From positions 1 through 34,285 of the forward strand of contig LXFE01000834.1 of assembly GCA_001929475.1 (NCBI GenBank): DNA of 34,285 bases, in the 5' to 3' direction. The translations under genes were made by a program, and so were the position numbers. The DNA comes from Neolecta irregularis DAH-3. Taxonomy: Eukaryota; Ascomycota; Neolectomycetes; Neolectales; Neolectaceae. Position 1 is the first letter of the stretch. Each line of letters starts with the position of its first letter. Below are positions 3,877 to 33,553 of the stretch, in pieces. The notes below the pieces were generated by a model. The model was given only the letters and a program-made list of their open reading frames with translations, was not told the DNA's origin and did no database searches.

Positions 3877-4912
3877 TCAGTGCATGTCTTGGAAAGGGGT
3901 GTTTATTTTGCCTTTTGTCAATACGAGTTCTATTTTTGTGGGTAGAATGATATACTTGGACCTGATTGGATCAATTTGCTAGATGTTTATTAATTGTGTT
4001 GTCTTGGGGATTTGATACGTCATATAACGGTATGGTTGATTTATATCTTTGGTTTCCAGAGAATAAAACATCCACTTGAATCTTTGGCCGTTAAAATAGA
4101 AAAAAGTGGAACAAAAATACCTCGGTTTGTGAAAATTTGATTTCGGTCTTGTCGGATTCTGCTTTTTTGGCAAATATCGAAACGATGACTTGACCTGGCG
4201 TTTGATAAAAGTCCGTTCTAACGTTTAGTGGGAGTCTATATTACAACGGTACCTGCACTCTGTTAAATTATCACTTGGTCCATCAAGAGTTCCAATGAAT
4301 AAATGTCGATCGACTGTACAGCCTCTGATTTTGAGAAACTCGTCGAATTCAAGAACTTTTCGTTTACAACAACTGTACCCTTTTGATCCTTCATGGAAGA
4401 TTGGTTGGCCGGGGTGGAATGTACACTTGTCTTGGCCTCTGCTTATTTGATCCGAGACAAATTCAGCGTTACACGCTGTGCGTTTACATTTCGCACCTAC
4501 TTGAATCGGGATATCAGCTGGATCTTGATCCAGCGGTTTTGCTTGTGGAGGTTCTGAAATAATTTGTTTCACTGACAGAGACGCGGGTTTTGCGGCTGCT
4601 GAGACTTCAGTCCGGTTTACCATCTTTTCACGAGCCGTAGTAGATGTAGTGGGACCTGATTGACGGGTCTCTTGTTCAAGTGAATGAGATCCAGTTGAAC
4701 AGCCCGGTAGTTCCAAGAATTCCTCAAACGAAGTCACTCGTTTTTTGCAACATGTATAGCCTAGAGCGGTTAGCAATTTGATTGAAGGCTATATACTTAC
4801 CTTTGAGTCCTTCGTGAAAGACAGGCTGTCCGGGATGAAAAGTACAGCCTCCTTCTCTAGTCTTCTCTGGATCAAATTCCTTTCCACATCCCTTTCGAGT
4901 ACAAACAGCCAT
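3877..4912 (-). CDS. CHORD-CS domain co-chaperone (CHORDC1/RAR1-like)
   Basis: The protein has two zinc-binding CHORD modules. The first starts at the N-terminus (CTRKGCGKEF...[23 protein letters not shown]) and the second is central (CKRTACNAEF...[23 protein letters not shown]). A CS domain follows, spread over three further exons (CRTDFYQTPGQVIVSIF, then RYKSTIPLYD, then SKYIILPTKIELVLTKGK), ending at TGA 3877-3879. Introns of 40, 35, 38 and 40 nt join these in frame. The domain order CHORD-CHORD-CS is that of Hsp90-binding proteins such as animal CHORDC1. The start ATG at 4910-4912 lies directly before the first zinc cysteine. Its 3' end faces that of the TGL-like gene 146 bp away. Confidence 0.92.
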
Positions 4913-5054: not shown

Positions 5055-7595
5055 ATGATTAGACCACCCAAAAAATCATTTTTCTCGCCAACAACCCGGT
5101 TCCTTCGACCAACCCGTATTCTGCCCAGAACAACTGCGCTCAGACCGGTTATTGCCAATGTCCGCCAAGTTCGAGTACCTTCGATTACAACAATACGAGG
5201 CTACGCTACCGGTCCACCAAACATCAAGATGAATATGGGCCAGGAGTCGAAGCCTGGGGAGGCACTAAAGACTTATGGTATCGATTTGACCGAGCTCGCG
5301 TCAAAGGGAAAATTAGACCCGGTTATTGGACGAGACGAAGAAATCAGGCGCACGATACAAATTCTGTCGCGGCGAACCAAGAATAATCCAGCTCTAGTGG
5401 GTCCCGCGTATGTTGTAGTGATCTAGAAAAGTGTTGACTTGATAGCGGCGTGGGAAAGACTGCAATCATGGAAGGTCTAGGTATATCTTTACCTCAAGCA
5501 AATAATCTAACGACAAGCTCAACGAATCGTACGGGGAGAAGTACCTGAATCAATGAAGGAAAAGCAAGTAATTTCGCTCGACCTGGGGTCTCTCATCTCC
5601 GGTGCAAAGTATCGAGGAGAATTTGAAGAACGATTGAAAGCCGTAATCAAGGATGTTGAGAGCGCCCAAGGCCGTATCGTTCTCTTTATCGACGAATTGC
5701 ATGTTCTTCTTGGGCTTGGAAAGACAGAAGGAAGCGTTGATGCAAGTAATATGTTGAAACCGGCCTTGGCTCGAGGACAACTACAATGCTGCGGTGCAAC
5801 AACTTTGGAGGAGTATCGAAAGTATATTGAAAAAGATGCTGCTCTCGCCCGTCGTTTCCAGCCGGTACAGATCCTCGAGCCCTCGGTGCAAGATTCGATA
5901 TCCATCTTGCGGGGCTTAAAAGGTAAATGGTATTCTTGCTTGAATTGCTGACGGGAAAAGAAAAGTACGAAGTGCATCATGGCGTTCGCATTACTGATGG
6001 GGCTCTCGTTACAGCTGCTACATATGCCCACCGCTATCTTGCCGATAAAAATCTTCCCGATTCCGCTATTGATTTGGTCGACGAGGCTTGTTCGTCCCTT
6101 CGTCTGCAATATGAATCGAAGCCCGATGCCATTGAAGAGCTAGACCGTCAAACAATGACAATACAGATCGAACTCGAAAGCCTAAAGAAGGAAACAGATG
6201 TTGTATCAAGCGAACGCAGAGAAAAATTAGAAACCCAGCTCAAGAAAAAACAAGGCGAATTGTCGAGACTCACAAAACTTTGGGAAGAAGAACGGTAGGA
6301 CTGCAAATCGGATTGTCAGTTGACATGTCAGAGCTGAACTCGAAAAAATCAAGAAAGCAAAGGAGCAGATAGAGGAAGCCAAAATGAATCTTGAGAAAGC
6401 GTTGCGAAACAACGATTATGTCCAGGCTTCACAGCTACGCTTCGCTATCATCCCCGAACTTGAAAAGAAACTTGAACGAGTAAATGGAGCTGAGACGACC
6501 TTACTTCACGATTCTGTGACCAGCGATGATATCGCCCGTGTCGTTTCAAAGGCCACCGGTATCCCGACCAATAACCTTATGCGAGGTGAGAAAGATCGGC
6601 TTCTCAATATGGAAAGCATTCTTCGCCAGTCAGTCATCGGGCAGGACGACGCAATCACTGCAGTTTCCGCTGCCGTCAGACTTTCGCGAGCGGGTTTATC
6701 CGACTCAGCTAGGCCTACAGCTAGTTTTATGTTTATGGGACCAACAGGAACAGGTAAAACCTTACTCAGTAAGAAGCTTGCAGAATTCTTGTTCGACGAT
6801 GAGAACGCAATGATCCGGATTGACTGTTCAGAGTACCAAGAGAGGCATAATGTTGCCTTGCTTACTGGTGCTCCCCCCGGTTATGTTGGATATGAAGAGG
6901 GCGGCCAATTGACGAACTCTATAAGACAAAGACCATATTCTGTTATCCTTTTCGATGAATTTGAAAAAGGTTTGTTCAAAGTTGCTGTCATCTACTAAGG
7001 ATATAGCCCATCGCGACGTATCAAACGTTCTTCTTCAGGTTTTGGATGAGGGGTTTCTAACGGATGCACAAGGACGCAAAGTTGATTTCCGGTCTACGAT
7101 AATTATTCTCACATCTAATCTCGGATCAGAACTTCTTACTGGGACAATTGTTTCGGAGGAAGTCAAACGGCAGGTAGTGAATGTAGCAGAGAATACGTAC
7201 CCACCCGAGTTTATCAATCGACTGGACGATATCGTTGTGTTTAATCGACTTTCCGTAGATAACATACGTAAAATAGTCGAACTTAGACTGGACGAAGTTC
7301 AAGTACGTCTCTCAGATAGGAGGATCACCTTGGACGTCGATAAGACTGTAAAAGATTGGCTTGCAACAGAAGGATTCTCCGAAATATACGGTATAACATT
7401 TGCTTTGCTATTAATAACAATTTAGGCGCTCGATCCTTGAACCGAGTGGTCTTGAAAAAACTACTCAATCCTCTTGCAGACAAACTTCTTGCTGGTCATG
7501 TTCGTGGAAATGACAGAGTAAGAATCCAAATGTCACCGGAAGGGACCGGACTTGATATTATACCACGTCAGAAACAGAATGAGGGTGATTCATGA
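5055..7595 (+). CDS. HSP78: Mitochondrial Hsp100/ClpB disaggregase Hsp78
   Basis: An AAA+ unfoldase of the mitochondrial matrix that works with mtHsp70 to resolubilise aggregated proteins. An Arg/Thr-rich mitochondrial presequence ends near RGYATG. The protein then enters AAA-1 at once ([13 protein letters not shown]), so it lacks the ClpB N domain, as Hsp78 does. AAA-1 has Walker A GPAGVGKT, pore loop [10 protein letters not shown], Walker B VLFIDELH and arginine finger ALARRF. A full coiled-coil M domain follows. AAA-2 has GPTGTGKT, pore loop GYVGYEEGG, Walker [10 protein letters not shown], finger FINRLDD and sensor-2 YGARSLNR. Six introns of 36-38 nt were placed, all with matching phase. 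ATG 5055 is chosen because the frame from there gives the presequence. The loop before the AAA-2 pore reads [12 protein letters not shown] where homologues usually have [12 protein letters not shown]. Confidence 0.95.
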
Positions 7596-9908: not shown

Positions 9909-12457
9909 ATGTCAGCTAAAAAAAGTATCAGCCTTTATTCTGTCAAATCCGACATCACGGAAGACAACCCCAAGACACCTGCTCCTGCCTGCAGGCTTAG
10001 GCCCCTGATTGAACTTCAAGGTCTGCACGAGGCCAGAATAACGTCTGCATCTAGTTCGGAGGATGGAGCTCCGATGACGGGGGAGGCAGAGATTCTTGTG
10101 GAAACTTGTACTGCTGTTCCGCTAGTTGTTCAGGCAGAGCTCAGTAACCCGATCCAGGAGGACATTTTCCAAGGGATTGTCCAAGTCAGGGAGAACTCTA
10201 TACGGAATCCTTCAATTTCTAGACTTCATGAGACGCCCCGCTCCTTCTTCACAACCAATGGCCTCGAAAATTCCATTAACGTATGTGGATCTTCATCCTC
10301 AAAGCTTGTCGGTTAGGAAACTCGAGAGAAAGTAGGCCTTATTTCAAAAGAATGCCGCGAAAAGAATCGTCGTTTTCGAGACCGTCATTTTGATCTTGAG
10401 AACGATCCCGCATACTGCCTTATGAAATTTGGAGGACTGGCCCCAGAAACGGAACCAGCAGGAGCTCTGCGAATTCACCGGGTACATACTCTCCACCAGA
10501 GAGTATAACCAATGAAGATCTTTGAACACCCGCAAATTTTCGTTAATGGCGTGTCTGCTGGAGATATTGTTCAAGGCGGGCGTAAGTTGAATATAAACAA
10601 TTGATGTTCTGATATGGTAGGCGGGAATAGTTGGTTTCTCTCTGCAGCTGCTAGTATCGCCTCTATTCCGGGTATGATCGAACGTATTTGTGTTGCACGG
10701 GATGAGGAGATTGGAATCTATGGGTTTGTGTTCTTCAAAGACGGGGAATGGTATTCTTCTTTATCTCAGCTACTTCTCTGAACCAGAGGATTTCGTCTAT
10801 TGTCGACGATTTTCTCTTTGTCAAGAGCGAAACCTTCGAGCAGGCTCAGCTCCCAGCCGACCGACACTGCGGGAATCCAAAGAGGATGGTCGAATCCTCG
10901 AACTCCAGAGGCTCTTCGGCACTGTTCTTTTCTCAGTGCGCCGATGACAATGAAACCTGGCTTCCGTTGCTCGAAAAAGCCTACGCTAAAGCTCATGGAG
11001 ATTATCAAAGCCTCTACGGCGGCTATCCCGGTGATGGAATTGAGGATCTAAGCGGAGGAGGTGCTAGTCATGTTTATCGGCGAGTGACAGTTTAGTCACT
11101 GATCAACTTTCTACTTCCGATATTCTTGACGAGGATGCTTTTTGGACAAACGAACTTCTACGAGCCAATAAAGATCTCCTTTTTTCATGTTGGGTAGCTG
11201 AATCTCACGGAGAAGCTATTATTGGATCAAATGGTCTTGTACATAATCATGCCTACAGTGTTTTGAAGGCTGTCGAAATTAAAGGTCGGAGACTTTTGAT
11301 GATTCGGTAAGTTCTTTGCAGAACCGCAGCTTATCTATACAGAAACCCTTGGGGAAACACCGAATGGAAAGGCCGATGGAGTGATGGAAGTTCTCAATGG
11401 ACTCCAGAATGGATGACCACCTTGGGACACAGATTTGGCAATGATGGGGTTTTCTGGATGGAATGTAGGCAGATCTTCTGCGATTCTTGCTTATGATTAG
11501 ACAGTGACTTCTTCCTAGAATTTAATGTCGTTGACCGAACTCGTTTATTCGATGGTACGTGGACGATCGAATCTCACTGGATGGAGGTGAGACCGAATTT
11601 TCCAGCAACTTTCGACGAATTTTCTTTTGAGCTCACGGTCACTATTGATACTGAAGCCGTGTTCGTCCTGTCACAACTGGATCGGCGATATTTTTCAGGC
11701 CTGCAAGGTCAATGGGACTACAAGCTTGAGTTCCGCATCCTTAAAAAGGGTAGCGATACTTATTCCAGTCGAGCATCTGCACCAGGGTTTGATTACCGAT
11801 CCATCAGCACGGAACTTCCACTTGAAGCCGGAACCTACATTATTTACGTCCGTATTGATCAGAGACTTCGATCAGGAGCTGCAAGTTTCCTTGAAGTTAT
11901 ATCAAGACAGGATGTTCGAGCGATTGGTAAACTTTTGAGAATTGCTAAGAACTATGAGGACGGACGTAAGCAGGTAACATATTTTGTATAAAAATGCAGC
12001 TAAGCTCCAGGCATCCAACGTCTCCGATAGGGAAGAAAACATCTGGAATGCAATTGCTTGTTGTCATGGATCTCTAGATGGTAAACGACCTACCGCGAGA
12101 CACTCGTTCAGGGTATCAGAACCTACTGAAATTCAAGGAGATATCCCAGATAGAAGACCTGAAGCTCCGAAAGTTACCATTGGCCTCCGAGTTTATACGC
12201 ACGATCCGAAAGCTCAGATTGAAGGACATATCAATGGCCTACCGAAACTTTCTAGTCGTCCAAAGTGCGGTACAACCACTGTTACAGCCGGATACCCGGT
12301 TGCATCGAAATTAGTTGCCAGGACCATTGATACAGTCTCCCAAATGACGCCAAACAATAAAACAAACTTAGACAAGGATCTACTAACTCGATCAGGCACC
12401 AAGTCTGGCTTCATGTCCAGGTTGATGTCGCCTCGTCATAACATTTTGACTTCCTAG
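9909..12457 (+). CDS. Fungal calpain-like protein with Cys-to-Ser in the active site
   Basis: Calpains are Ca-dependent cysteine proteases. An N-terminal Ser/Pro/Glu-rich region is followed by the calpain catalytic core: KECREKNRRFRD, FVNGVSAGDIVQG, then GNSWFLSAAAS where active members have GDCWFLSALAT. The nucleophile codon 10629-10631 is AGT (Ser). The catalytic His (VHNHAYSV, CAT 11248-11250) and Asn (RNPWGNTEW, 11344-11346) are kept, as is the oxyanion Gln. Domain III follows (WTPEWMTTL...FWMEYSDFF, VFVLSQLDRRYF). Introns are 34-39 nt. The first (10281-10316) removes the only in-frame stop and the last (about 11965-11998) leads to a Ser/Thr/Lys-rich tail ending at TAG 12455-12457. Family membership is clear; proteolytic inactivity is inferred from the missing thiol. 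Confidence 0.9.
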
Positions 12458-12657: not shown

Positions 12658-14535
12658 CTACAAATCCAGATCGTTGTCAACATTTGTACCAACGAACGCC
12701 CGTTGAAGAAATGTCCGCCATAGTGTAAGGCTGTTTTTCTTCGCAGTTTTTATCTCCTTCGTACTTCCGATGTCCACGCCAATACGTCTCGCTAGTTCAA
12801 TATAACTCGAAACCGTCAAATCTTTCATATTATAAGGGGTTTTGTCAGTTGCGTAAAGTGGTTCATATTTGAATTTTCCTCCTGCATTTATTTCTGTCAG
12901 ATTTGCATAGTACTGCGTATAGCGAATAGGTGTAAGTGCTTGATAATCATATGCAGGGCCACGAGATTGACCCTTTGGTGGGTCATCGGGTCGACTTTTG
13001 CTTTGATGTCTAACTAGGCGATTCCTTTTTTTGGTCCTTTTTTTCTTGAAAAGACCTTCAATCTCGTTTTCAGAAAGGATGGAGAGGCTACTGTTTGTAA
13101 TAGAAAGGAACTCCTGGATGTAGGTTGTTTCATCCATGCCTTCAACATCCGCATTCGTCTTGAAAGAATCCGGACCTTGTACGACTAGGGCATGTCGGGA
13201 TGTGGATAGACGCGTCTGTTCTGAGTTTTCGTCTTGATGCTTAAGCCCTTTGGTTTCATATTCCAAGATTCGAAAGCCAGGGTAATAGTTTGGGATAACT
13301 GATGGAACGACGTTAGCAATTGCCCATTGTTCGTCATTGATATTTTTATGCTTCTTTGCAAATTTCTGACATTGCTCTTTGATTTTCTTGAGCCATCCCT
13401 AATAGTTAGACAAGATAAAACTTCTCAGAAAACATGCTTCTGCCCCGCCTTTCATTGTTGTTTCCTTCTCGTGTAGGAAAATGAAAAAGTCAACATTTGA
13501 ATGTCCGAAGACGCTTCCTATAATAACATCTCGAAATTGTTTTGTCCAAATGTCATATTTTTTCCAGCAGCTGGGCGAATAGCTACCTTTCCTGGGTGCA
13601 ACATGACCAGTAAGCCAAACTTTGACTCCACGATCACGGTACTGATAGAGTTGATTTTGAAGCCATTCGAATTGTTGAAACCCCGGTTCTTCAGGCCAGT
13701 CACATCCATCAACAGCGCCGTTATTGTCAAACCAATATATCGTATTCAGAGATATGACCGCAAGTTTATTTGGGATTACTTCGTTGGTAAAATAAACTCC
13801 GTGCTCGACTTCGTGAAACTGGGATTCTGGATAGAATGGACGCCATATCTTGGCAAATCTGCGTGTCGTAGGATTTGGACCGGCAGCAATGATGTTGTCT
13901 ATATATTCAAACGAATCTCAGAAAGGGTATATACGCGGAAATATGTCATTATTCCCGAGACCTAAAGTAATAAGCGCAGGGATACATATATGCATACTCG
14001 GGATGATCGGAATACTCAGCGGTTTTATGGGGTCATCCGTTTTGAAGACTTGGTAAAACATGTCTGCAATTTGCTCATTTAGATCTGCAATTTGCGATGG
14101 GCTTCGTGGAAAATTCTCGTCATTATCATGTCTGAATTTCTTTATTAGCAAGATCAAACTCATAAACGAATACCTGGCGTTATCTCCAGTCCAAACGACA
14201 AAATCAATCTTGTCCTTCCAGTCTCTCTCAATAGTCTTAAATGTTTCGTTCACAAGAGACCAAGGAGCGTCGCAGTCTGAGAGCGGAGCACCGTACTTCC
14301 CAGAGAGTTGGTCGGTTCCCCCTTTGTATTTACGGCGCGTTTGTATAGGATATTGGTGACAATGATTTTCAGTAGTTGCGCCGATGATATAAAATGGATC
14401 TGGATGCAAGTCTGTTAAATGCAGAAATCTCCCGTGAAGTGCAAATGAAAGCCTACCTAACAAGACTAGAAGAAAGTGAAGCGGGGCCTGGAACGCGTTA
14501 AAAGGGGTTATACAACCCAGATACCATGCGAACAT
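12658..14535 (-). CDS. PPN1: Vacuolar endopolyphosphatase Ppn1
   Basis: Cleaves inorganic polyphosphate internally; in yeast it is a type II vacuolar membrane protein. A hydrophobic N-terminal segment (about residues 15-35) can be the signal anchor. The metallophosphoesterase motifs follow in order: HLTDLHPDP, KYGAPLSDCD, WTGDNARHDNDE, SLGNNDIFP, WLTGHVAP, and FGHSNVD. The family C-terminus is present (YNMKDLTVSSY, LWRTFLQRAF). Introns after GDNAR and before LGNND, and two further short ones, restore the frame. The metal ligands appear complete. The last motif has DFF where DHF is usual. The frame is open upstream to 14637 without an ATG, so ATG 14533-14535 is used; an upstream exon is possible. 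It converges with the calpain-like gene. Confidence 0.93.
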
Positions 14536-14687
14536 TGGCCAAAGGAACGATGTCTGAAAAGAAGGGCAGGAGACCGTAGAATGTTTGACAATAGGGACCC
14601 TGGAAGTAGCGGAATTAGTGGAGGTTGTACAGGCCAAGAAACAAAGACAGTTCTACAACATATTCAAGTGACTGTTTCATAAAGAAG

Positions 14688-22275: not shown

Positions 22276-24802
22276 ATGCCACCATTATTTGTCGCCCCAT
22301 TACCATACGATCCCGCCGGAAGATGTGTAGTGCGGAAGCTTCTGGTCGCTAATCGAGGAGAGATTGCCTGCCGTGTTATCCGATCAGCTAGAAAAGTTGG
22401 AGTCTCAACAGTCGCGATATATACCACTCCGTAACGGGTGTTCATTAGCATTTCAATTGACTTGAAGAGATAAAGACAGTCCACACGTTCGATTAGCAGA
22501 TGAAGCTGTACATATCGGAGATATTGGAGAAGTCAATCCGCACATGAATGGACAGTTTTTGGTCGAAACCGCAACGAGAGTGGGAGCAGATTCAATCCAC
22601 CCTGGTACTTCCTTTTGAGGTGTCTGTTTTGAATAGAGGTTATGGCTATTTGAGTGAAAATGCTGGCTTTGCAAAACTCGTTCAAGATTCAGGGCTACTT
22701 TTTGTTGGACCTTCAAGTGAATCAATCAGTCTCCTCGGCAACAAGGTGATCTCAATACTTTCGCAGCGGCTGAATATTTAAGGCTTCCGCAAAGGAGTAT
22801 CTTTCAAAGAACGCATCGAATGTTCCTTTGATCCCAGGATACAATGGCTCAAACCAAACACCCTCATACCTTTCTTCACAAGCTATCGCGATTGGATTTC
22901 CCGTCCTTATCAAAGCGGCTGCAGGCGGAGGTGGGAAAGGCATGCGAATTGTCAGGTCATCCAAAGGAATTGAGGAACTTATTGCACGAGCTGGCTCAGA
23001 GAGTCAGCGTTCTTTTGGATCCAGTCACTTGCTGGTCGAGAAGTATATTGAAAAAGGAAAGCATATAGAAGTCCAAATATTTGGCGATAACAGGGGCAAC
23101 ATTGTTTGCTTTTTTGAACGCGAATGTTCTGTTCAACGAAGACATCAAAAAGTTATCGAAGAAACGCCTAGTCCATGGATATCAAATGGCGTGCGGCAAA
23201 GGATGATGGCAGCTGCTACAGAGATTGGACGATTGATTAAATACGAAGGCGCTGGTACAGTCGAATTTATTGTTGACATCGAATCTTCACAATTCTATTT
23301 CTTGGAAGTCAATACCCGTATTCAAGTCGAACATCCAATCACAGAAGAGACCGTAGGGGTCGATCTTGTTGCACTACAACTTTATGTTGCTGCGGGCGGT
23401 CAATTGGACCGACTGCCTGAACTTCGAAGCCTCAGGCAGACTGTGCGGTCTCCTGCGTCAAATTTCGTTTAATGAACCAGGGTCATGCTATTGAATGTAG
23501 ATTATGCGCAGAAGACCCACATAACGATTTTCTACCTTGCACCGGCATCATTCGCAGATGGAACACCGCAGAAGAACTTGTGAAAACCCATATACCAGGT
23601 CTGCGCTATGAAACCGGGGTAGAGACAGGTTCGGCATACTCTTTACTGGTTTTCAAAGCTAGGCTCCGAGATATCAGTCTTCTTCGATCCTATGATATGC
23701 AAGATCATTGTTCATGCAGAAACCCGACGACAAGCTATTCACAAACTCATATTCGTTCTTCGTCATACAGCAATCCTCGGACTCGTCACCAATCAAGGAT
23801 TCCTCATTTCTTGTCTCGGGCATGAGGAATTCCATAAGGGAGAATATACCACTGGGTTTATTGATTCATTCAGAACTGAGTTATTATTCCCCCCTCCGCG
23901 CCCTCTTCTTACCGGAGAGCTGGCTATTGTACCATCGCTGTTACTTCGTCACATTCGACAAACGATGAGAGCAAGATCGAGCTTTGACACTTTGTCTGCA
24001 GGTTGGCGGAATAACCAATACGATGTGTCTTCCAAACATGTCGACAGCATTACTATTGATCCCTCGACCCTACCAGCGGCCGTCTTCGTACAATATGAAA
24101 AGGATTATGTCCTTGTCTGGGATGAACCAGCCCCAATGAAGTTTGAGGGAAAAGAGTTTCTCAATAAGGTCGGTGGTCAACTTATCTTACGATATTACAA
24201 TACTTTACGCACTCGAAAAGGTCTCGAAGGCCGAACGGAACAAGATTGGCCCTTTGGAGTAGATAAAAATATGAAGAAATATGATTTTCATGTCGATGAT
24301 ATCAAAATCGACTTCATTCGTGGGAAATGGATGACTGCAGATATGCGACTCTCAATCAACGGAATTCAACGGACATATTTCGCTGCGACGGACACATCTG
24401 TCATTAGCTCTGCGATGGCCGTCCAAAACGTATTCGTGCTCTCCAGTGATGTGGGGTTTGGAATCAAGTTTTCTCGACGTAATTTATTAACATATGCTGG
24501 CAAGCTGGACGAGCGAATCAGTGGAGAAGACTTGGAAGGTGTGACAAAACAAGTCATCCGAAACTAATACAGCAGGTGGCGAAAAACGATATTTGACACC
24601 GATGCCCTGTAAGATCTTGATTGTTCTTGCCTCGGACGGTGCAAGAATTTCCAAAGGAGACGGGCTTGTGATAATGGAGAGCATGAAGACAGAAGTCAAA
24701 ATCGCTGCTCGGACAGCAGGGCTTGTCAAGATGAAAGTGAGGGCCGGACAAGTCCTTGGAGAAGGTGAGACCATCTGCGAAATAGAGCAGGATGAAGATT
24801 AG
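22276..24802 (+). CDS. Biotin-dependent acy-CoA carboxylase alpha subunit (MCC-like)
   Basis: It carries the biotin carboxylase and biotin-carrier halves in one chain, like 3-methylcrotonyl-CoA carboxylase alpha. Motifs in order: [31 protein letters not shown], the ATP-grasp glycine loop [57 protein letters not shown], and a linker region of about 250 residues. The biotinyl domain has TPMPCKIL and IMESMKTEV with the biotin lysine at 24686-24688. Seven introns of 33-38 nt were placed. The biotin motif is SMKT and not the usual AMKM. I see no clear mitochondrial presequence. Propionyl- or geranyl-type carboxylase cannot be excluded. Confidence 0.9.
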
Positions 24803-28894: not shown

Positions 28895-31768
28895 ATGCTT
28901 GAATTATCGCTTACTGGTATTTCTGTTGCCATCGAGACAGCAATCGGAGAGCTAGTTACTCGGGGCATAAACAGCAAACCATTTTTGCCAACTCAAGCAG
29001 AATCTCTCGGCACGAAAGAAGTTCTAGCGGATCGCGCTAGCGGGTTTAACTTTTGGAAGACGGTGTGCTGGCCCGATGATATCATCCTGTTGCTGATTCT
29101 TTTTAAAAGCTGCATTTGGTCCATCCATTTTCCTGTCATCCTTGCTATGAACATCGTGATCCCGATGCAATTCAACATTATTATTACTGGACTGAGTGTT
29201 ATTGTGACGATCATTGCAAATTTTCTCAATTCTGCAATTGACACTCTCGTTCGGATGTTCAGAAAATATCCTCTTTATTATGCTGTGGATGCTGAGACAG
29301 ATCCAATCGATCATACTGAAAATGATTCTGTCTCCAGCCAGTCTCCTCGGGGCCTGAACAGTAAATCCGAAGATGCACTTGAAGGATTGATCAACCCAGA
29401 CACAATCTCTGGTTTGGATCAGCGAACTGCTGCAGAGCAAAAAAGGGGCATTTGCTGTCAGATCACGCTTGCTATTATACTTCGGGCTTTTTGTCTCAGA
29501 GTGAGCATTTGCACAGTGCACTACAGGGGTATGTTAGCTTCAAAGCTTTACTGAATATGAGAAATATGGGCCACGGGTTTCGATAGGATATTAGAGTGGA
29601 ACAAATCTCTGGTCTGTCTATCATTCCTACCTACTTGGGGATTATCCATTGTCGCATTAGCATTTAGTAGGTATGCCGCTACTTACTTGTCTAAACGTCT
29701 AGTACCCAGAGAAATCAATCAAGTACGTATCTATACGAGCTGGCGAATTAATCCTTAGGTCCAGCAAATCTCCTTCTTTATAGCTGCTTTATATGTCAGT
29801 CTGATCCATTACCTTGGTGTGCCACAAAACCATATTCTGTTTTTTATTATTAGGTATGTGGGCTGCTACGTTCCACACATCAGTAGCCCTATCGTATGAC
29901 CGCTCAATGGTCATGCGATCTTCTGGAATCACTTTCACGGTTGCATTAATCGCAATCGGATCCTGCTTTTTGAGTTACATACTACTTGCTCATTTCGTGG
30001 TAACTAGTCGGAAAAGGTAACCCCATAAAGTGTTCTAGTCCCTCAAGGTCAGCTTAGCAGACAAAGTCGCCACCAAGCAAAATTTCTGGAAGGTCATTAC
30101 CCAAAAGCAAGCTGCTGAGAGAGCTAATTCTATCAAAACCGAATTTATCAGCATTGCATCTCACGAAATTCGAGTGGGGCACTCTCATTGTCAACAACTG
30201 ACAGCAAGACACCGCTTCATGCGATTAGTGGATATGCAGATCTTTTGGAGGCGTCTCATCTCTCTGTGGAACAAGCGACATACGTTCAAAATATTGTTAA
30301 TGGTTGTCGCTTGATACAGTTAATAACAAACAATGTTCTTGATTTCGCAAAGCTTGAGCGCGGCAATAAAGAGACGGAAGCAAATCCAGCTAAAACCGAA
30401 ATACGAAAACTGATCCAGAGCGTAGTCAATGCCGCAGGCGAAAAGAAAGGCGTCGAGATCATCGCCAGCGTGAAACCTTCTGTAGCTGGTGACTTTCTTG
30501 TTGATGAGGTCTATTTAACAAGGGTGTGACGAGTCACGTAATATGAGACTAATGGGTAGGTTCTCATGAATCTCCTTTCCAATTCCCTAAAGTTCACTGA
30601 ATCTGGAAGCGTGGTGGTCGAAGTTTACTTTTGCTGCTCAGAAGGTAAATCGAATTTAGTAATAAAAGTACGCGACACTGGAATTGGTATGAAAATCTAT
30701 AAATGTTATTCCACAAACGTCTTAGGAATTCCAAAAGAGTTTTGTTCTACAATATTCGAACCATTTCGTCAAGCAGATACCAATCTAACGAGGAAGCATA
30801 CCGGCACTGGTTTGGGTATTTGGATTTCCTGCCTTTGTTCAACTATCAGGTCTTGCAATCACCAAGCAACTGGTCAATCTTATGTTCGGCACCATTGTTG
30901 TCAATAGTACTATCGAACAAGGCACAGAGTTCACTGTTACGATACCCTCCGAACTCGGCTTTCCAGCTGACGATACCACAACAAGTTTTATGATAAACCT
31001 CATCTGGTCGGATGAGTTAATAGGTGAAACAATCAGGATTTTCCTCGAGTCTTGCAGTGCCGGGTGTACTCGAATCGAGCCTTCTTTGTTTCAAGCTTTT
31101 GACGATTCGGTAATTGTTTCGAATGTCCTGATTGATGAAATGTTACGCGTGAAAAGAAGGATATTTCTATACCTGGATACAGACACTAAATGCCTTCCTT
31201 CAAACATCATAGTTCTACGGCGTCCGATCATTATTCATTCACTTATAGGCCTAATAAACGCATCGTCCGAGATTATCACACCTACTTCCTTTGACACCTT
31301 AAATCCGGTTCAAGGTGTTAGAATGTCATCTTACGGTGGGAAGTCAGTTCACTTTCAAGCATCGGTTAAAGTATTACTAGTTGAAGATAATACAATCAAT
31401 CAGCAGCTTGGAATCAGGCTTCTCGAACAACTGGGATATGAGGTCGGCGTTGCAGAAAACGGGAGGATCGCTCTCGATAGACTATCTTCAGAGAAGTTCG
31501 ACCTTATTTTGATGGATTCTCAGGTACCCTACACTCTTCAGTCTTTCCTGATGTTGAGATGCCGGTCATGAACGGGTTCGAATGTATGAGAGCAATCCGG
31601 AACTCCGAAAGGATATCTGGACGACATATCCCAATCATTTCACTCACTGCAAATGTTTCCTCTCAGTCTCGTCAGGAGTGCCTGGAAGCTGGAGCAGACA
31701 TGTTTCTACCAAAGCCATTGAGATTACATGAGTTGAAGGAAGCTTGCATAGCCTTCACAAAAGCTTAA
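28895..31768 (+). CDS. Hybrid histidine kinase with MHYT-type membrane sensor
   Basis: A multistep phosphorelay sensor. The N-terminal membrane region has three MHYT-like repeats: SIHFPVILAM (about 29120), VHYREIWATGF (split by an intron after CAC TAC at 29519-29524) and IHYLGMWAATF (29804 onward), each followed by a membrane span. The kinase core has H box ASHEIRTPLHAI (His 30163-30165), N box LMNLLSNSLKFT, G1 VRDTGIGIP, F box FEPFRQAD and G2 TGTGLGLAI. A linker of about 150 residues with no clear motif leads to a receiver domain (LLVEDNTINQQL, phospho-Asp ILMD at 31515-31517, MPVMNGFE, ISLTANVS, FLPKPL). About nine introns of 33-39 nt were placed, with one inside the H box. All residues for autokinase and receiver function are present. 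The exact start is uncertain. Confidence 0.9.
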
Positions 31769-32674: not shown

Positions 32675-33553
32675 ATGGACTTGGATCCAACCACTGAAGC
32701 ATTTCAAAGCTACGAGACGGATTTCAAACTGGTCCTTGCAGATGTCTCCCAAAACCTTGATCAGGCGACAGAAGAAAAAGGGGGTAGAGTCACATTTGTG
32801 GAAAGCGAGTTGAAATATAGAGCCACGAAAGGCCGCATTGAATGCTGCTCAGAGGGCGATCGACGAAGCACTGGAAATCGTAGGGCTTATCAATAACAAG
32901 GTCAGTTTTAATAAGTCTAGTATGGACAAATGGAATTCGAGGTAGCCAATATACCACAAGGATCAAGGGGAAAAGTAAATACCCGCTTACGCACCAATAA
33001 AATAGACCTTGATAGATTTAAAAGGGAAATCGTATATTTCTTTTAACTCAGGGTTGTTCTGAAGCTGTAGAGTAAACTTCGGAGTGAGGCAGACCGGGAA
33101 TCTCTGTTAGGAAATCGGTATACTGATCCAGATGATATTGATGCACTCGATCAACGAGTGAGGCTTCTCAGTGGAACGGATCGTTTGGAACGAAGTAGTC
33201 AGCGATTGAGAGACAGTCAACGACTTGCGCACGAAACCGAGGGCCTTGGAGCCGGAATTTTAACAGATCTGAGAGGTCAGCGGGAGCAACTGCAAAATAC
33301 TAGAGATATGGTAAGAAATCTGAGGCAAACCCAACCCTAATCTGGCAGCTTCTGGAAACGGACGGATATGTTGACAAATCTGTTAGGACACTGAAAGGAA
33401 TGGCTCGAAGGTGTGTTTTTCTTGTGGCAACTGCCCTCTATCTAATCATCGGGGCTAATGATTAGGATGGCTACGAACAAAATGATCACTAGCTCAATTA
33501 TCGCTGTACTCACCATTCTCATACTTGTTGTGATATATAACAAGTTTGCGTGA
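32675..33553 (+). CDS. VTI1: v-SNARE Vti1
   Basis: A Qb-SNARE for Golgi, endosome and vacuole fusion. Six exons, with introns of about 48, 41, 39, 38 and 55 nt. The N-terminal three-helix bundle is visible (FQSYETDFKLVLADV, AALNAAQRAIDEALEI, GQMEFEVANIP, LRTNKIDLDRFKREI). The SNARE helix follows (TDRLERSSQRLRDSQRLAHETEGLGAGILTDLRGQREQL) with the Q-layer glutamine, then VDKSVRTLKGMARRM. A C-terminal membrane anchor (SSIIAVLTILILVVIY) is followed by four residues and TGA 33551-33553. ATG 32675 gives the expected short N-terminus. Confidence 0.94.

Follow-up and report, generated by a model that had tools for sequence, protein, structure and literature searches.

The window analysed here is positions 1–34,285 (34,285 nt) of contig LXFE01000834.1 of Neolecta irregularis DAH-3 (assembly GCA_001929475.1), and at about 9909–12457 on its plus strand a spliced model translates as a nine-exon calpain gene that encodes serine where active calpain proteases have their catalytic cysteine. 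We consider it probable that this gene encodes a calpain pseudoprotease whose calcium-responsive binding is retained, and one mark of a pseudoprotease is present: a catalytic residue is replaced within an otherwise conserved and intact calpain gene. The ∼750 codons in the nine exons are all open and the splice sites are usable; the ATG at 9909 is our guess at the start codon. Exons and introns below are those of the translated spliced model, and counts refer to the 203 aligned homologues described later.

9909–10280, 10317–10481, 10518–10581, 10621–10750 and 10789–11060, plus strand: exons 1–5 of the calpain gene
11096–11306, 11343–11464, 11501–11965 and 12000–12457, plus strand: exons 6–9 of the calpain gene
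10572–10574, plus strand: Gln codon of the oxyanion hole (QG..G); Q in 201 of 203
10582–10620, plus strand: 39-nt intron within the active-site motif (GTAAGT...GGTAG), splitting an Arg codon
10626–10628, plus strand: AAT, Asn where most of the group have Asp; N in 16 of 203
10629–10631, plus strand: AGT, Ser at the catalytic Cys position; Cys in 200 of 203
11248–11250, plus strand: catalytic His codon (NHAYS); H in 200 of 203
11307–11342, plus strand: 36-nt intron preceding RNPWG
11344–11346, plus strand: catalytic Asn codon (RNPWG); N in 200 of 203
11501–11965, plus strand: exon holding most of domain III (the calpain beta-sandwich)

Removal of the 39-nt intron yields I-V-Q-G-G-R-G-N-S-W-F-L-S, in which the QGGRGNSWFLS of an initial annotation of this DNA is recovered, and the spliced translation likewise bears out its assignment of AGT to serine at the nucleophile and locates the catalytic His and Asn that it had described as kept. 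The top match of the spliced protein is P0001, the deposited product of the same gene ('Calpain-type cysteine protease ADL1, partial [Neolecta irregularis DAH-3]', 801 amino acids), whose residues across this intron, GNSW included, are identical. Two differences separate P0001 from the nine-exon model: an upstream extension that lacks a start, and the last intron, which by the letters of P0001 would lie at about 11974–12010 instead of the 11966–11999 of the model. The second intron (10482–10517) was retained in the model; it restores the family alignment through R-I-H-R-I-F-x-x-P, the unspliced frame contains a stop, and the deposited protein gives the same residues as the spliced model. An alternative acceptor for the 39-nt intron, which the initial annotation had named as a refutation if it supplied GDCW, was rejected, as use of the next AG (10629–10630) would make the intron 10 nt longer, and the resulting frameshift would abolish the motif.

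The identity of the protein as a calpain is not a matter of chance, because Peptidase_C2 (PF00648) matches residues 172–457 with 203 bits (cut-off 23.8) and an E-value of 7e-60. Structure prediction yields a calpain core followed by the beta-sandwich of domain III; thus domain III, which had been described as remaining, is present by predicted fold, but the Pfam profile Calpain_III (PF01067) has no match in the protein at E up to 1. The same profile had no match in the searched Neolecta assembly and none in 14 control genomes either, and a homologue search with domain III alone returned, among 434 candidates, only the Neolecta protein itself. At E up to 1, Peptidase_C2 was the only Pfam match, and the C-terminal penta-EF-hand domain of classical (PEF) calpains was not found. 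The oxyanion Gln, the His, the Asn and both active-site Trp are all present, and the triad is Ser-His-Asn, not the Cys-His-Asn of an active calpain protease.

The 203 aligned proteins were picked by similarity to the Neolecta calpain, and consist of the best 120 of 2015 homologues together with 83 new proteins from the 95 listed in a motif-centred search. At the nucleophile position 200 have Cys, and the other three residues are Ser in Neolecta, Thr in P0136 and Arg in P0203; a survey of homologues for serine, akin to the one proposed in the initial annotation for GNSW in fungal calpains, thus left the Neolecta calpain as the sole Ser protein, with Cys in 200 of the 202 others. The motif-centred search gave no further Ser at this position among the matches listed. 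P0136, a metagenomic calpain with His and Asn intact, is another single-residue loss, and in P0203 (Pleurotus djamor ONZ45_g8452) all three triad residues are replaced (Arg, Arg, Ser). P0090 (Pleurotus djamor ONZ45_g8446) is a paralogue of P0203 with Cys, and the contigs are equal in size and the gene numbers close, so that the two probably belong to a gene cluster containing a dead copy. The residue before the nucleophile is Asp in 185 proteins, Asn in 16 and Thr in 2, which makes Asn the second commonest, and the Asp-to-Asn change is ordinary because the 15 other proteins with Asn all keep Cys.

AGT and TGT are one base apart. A base error or assembly artefact with TGT as the true codon is nevertheless hardly credible: a single assembly stands behind AGT and its source was wild fruiting bodies, but the genome paper reports 199-fold coverage (for a genome of 14.5 Mb with 5,546 genes, 99.4% of them with RNA support; PMC5309816), the neighbouring Asn is natural in the family, and the reading frame is open throughout the remainder of the gene.

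The aligned residues of the site, the nucleophile excepted, resemble those of an ordinary calpain in this group. Of the 51 columns in which the other 202 proteins show at least 98% conservation, 49 are kept, the departures being the nucleophile and F236I. Within the best 120, the near-site windows hold just three departures from columns with 80% conservation or more, D253N, C254S and T382S; conserved columns are changed at 3 of 31 positions near the active site and at 15 of 107 far from it (p 0.76, with near-site windows of our own choosing). Changes are therefore not enriched near the site, and this, together with the Asn found beside Cys in 15 other proteins, contradicts the suggestion of the initial annotation that the whole motif had drifted. 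If, in a crude model, constraint is taken to have ceased entirely when the Cys was lost, the free period could make up at most about 8–11% of the branch. Either the fold is maintained for a reason, or the loss of the nucleophile is recent.

Several observations weigh against a maintained pseudoprotease. Within the best 120, the Neolecta calpain departs from 5 of 74 columns at the 98% level, the most of any protein there, and from 6 of 94 at the 95% level, a top count that it shares with the Cys-bearing P0020. In the full set of 203 its deviance ranks 18th (98%) and 21st (95%). In a tree built by a quick method from 120 rows of the core only, its end branch is long, at 1.16 changes per site, and lies within an unresolved fork of 42 rows, so that its exact origin is unsure; comparable end branches are seen in isolated lineages with Cys (P0020, 1.22; P0013, 1.20; P0100, 1.10). 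Neither a second Neolecta protein among the best 120 of the 2015 homologues nor a close relative was found, and some loosening of constraint is possible. Finally, Val occupies the position aligned to the mu-calpain calcium ligand Glu333. Because this position varies across the whole group, with Gln in 56, Glu in 48 and Val in 35 of the 202 others, the Val leaves the odds of the readings unchanged. The calcium-ligand positions conserved within the group are retained in the alignment to the core ligands of mu-calpain.

The same long branch and the number of departures, higher than in other top matches, could also be expected of a gene that recently lost its function and is drifting to a pseudogene, for which a one-base change is enough, and no close relative was found in which retention of the serine could show. 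Nine exons with ∼750 open codons, usable splice sites and 49 of 51 nearly invariant columns intact speak against such drift, which we judge unlikely, although a very recent loss would look identical.

In the pseudoprotease that we favour, calcium would still close both core halves, as in active calpains, and the cleft would be able to bind peptides or partner proteins, while the Ser hydroxyl with a papain-type His-Asn would be unable to cut at a useful rate. The protein may then have a binding or scaffolding role that responds to calcium, similar to the role supposed for calpain-6 and by analogy with the non-enzymatic role of SERA5, and the Cys-to-Ser change would have arisen on the Neolecta lineage. 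It is conceivable, but rather doubtful, that the protein is a calcium-gated calpain 'trap', whose Ser-His-Asn cleft closes on substrates or partners that stay uncut, and which is possibly the only Neolecta calpain of its clade.

A serine-dependent calpain, in which Ser-His-Asn serves as a slow protease, esterase or other hydrolase, would fit the intact remainder of the triad, the intact oxyanion Gln and the undecayed near-site columns. Silicateins, which are cathepsin-L-like and have Ser as nucleophile, are described as showing that a papain-like fold can adopt other chemistry. However, a C-to-S mutant engineered in mouse calpain 8 is reported to keep its structure and lose its activity, and the papain-like SERA5, with a natural Ser, is reported to have no detectable protease activity, to become active with Cys and to give no phenotype upon Ser-to-Ala change, its role being described as non-enzymatic (PMC4671257). 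Moreover, none of D253N, C254S and T382S is an obvious compensation. Thus a serine-dependent enzyme is possible but very unlikely, and a natural C-to-S pseudoprotease, which the initial annotation had also ranked above it, is the best reading.

A PF00648 search of 8.96 Mb of assembly (14.5 Mb published) returned the gene at 9909–12457 as its sole match, although PalB/RIM13 may be present as well. Hence the second calpain that had been suggested for a check did not appear, but its absence is not established, because 8.96 of 14.5 Mb were searched and PF00648 was also unmatched in all 14 control genomes. Elsewhere in the window, long frames on the minus strand at 12658–14652 presumably resemble a metallophosphoesterase or endopolyphosphatase-type protein, and those at 12658–13398 and 13918–14652 had no Pfam match. 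Frames at 30128–31768 on the plus strand carry HisKA and response-regulator domains and probably belong to a single hybrid histidine kinase interrupted by introns. The frames 2–565, 2181–2564, 4225–4788 (minus strand), 5511–5948, 23623–24564 and 33071–33337 are ordinary-looking fungal genes with matches to Myb repeats, DUF3336 with patatin, CHORD, AAA, biotin carboxylase C-terminal and V-SNARE domains.

A search found no paper on Neolecta together with calpain, and what was found on calpain and Taphrinomycotina does not, by its title, concern Neolecta calpains. Dead calpains and natural Cys-to-Ser changes are already known, and the Neolecta protein probably adds another case. According to a 2012 alignment of 1234 UniProt calpains, 344 lack at least one triad residue, in plants, animals, fungi and protists (PMC3315469), and natural Cys-to-Ser changes were reported in 2026 for many brown algal sequences (PMC13413365). 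Brown algal and oomycete calpain-like proteins that lack the canonical Cys are described as having the His replaced as well, with another Cys and His put forward in their stead, whereas Neolecta keeps His and Asn. An incomplete-triad calpain core is shared with the naturally inactive calpain-6, Drosophila CALPC and C. elegans CLPR proteins, which are animal subfamilies (PMC3315469, PMC3563603); calpain-6, described as microtubule-stabilising, has Lys at the Cys position (PMC3563603), where Neolecta has Ser. Plasmodium SERA5 likewise has a papain-like domain with a natural Ser nucleophile, but it is a parasitophorous vacuole protein and not a calpain. Closer at hand, those fungal calpains in which no EF-hand domain is detected (e.g. 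Tuber and Rhizophlyctis) have the domain order and the conserved calcium-ligand positions in common with the Neolecta calpain, and the 119 other best-listed homologues are 39–49% identical to it over core and domain III. P0136 and P0203 belong to this same calpain group and have the nucleophile replaced too, P0203 additionally lacking His and Asn. If our reading is true, the Neolecta protein reproduces in nature the C-to-S calpain mutant that laboratories use as a standard and could separate binding from cutting roles; moreover, Neolecta is described as a multicellular genus within a group of mostly yeasts (PMC5309816), and a protein kept there after its protease activity was lost would be informative about the calpain roles that fungi require. 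Among the known cases compared, that of Neolecta is the cleaner one, because the nucleophile alone of the triad is changed.
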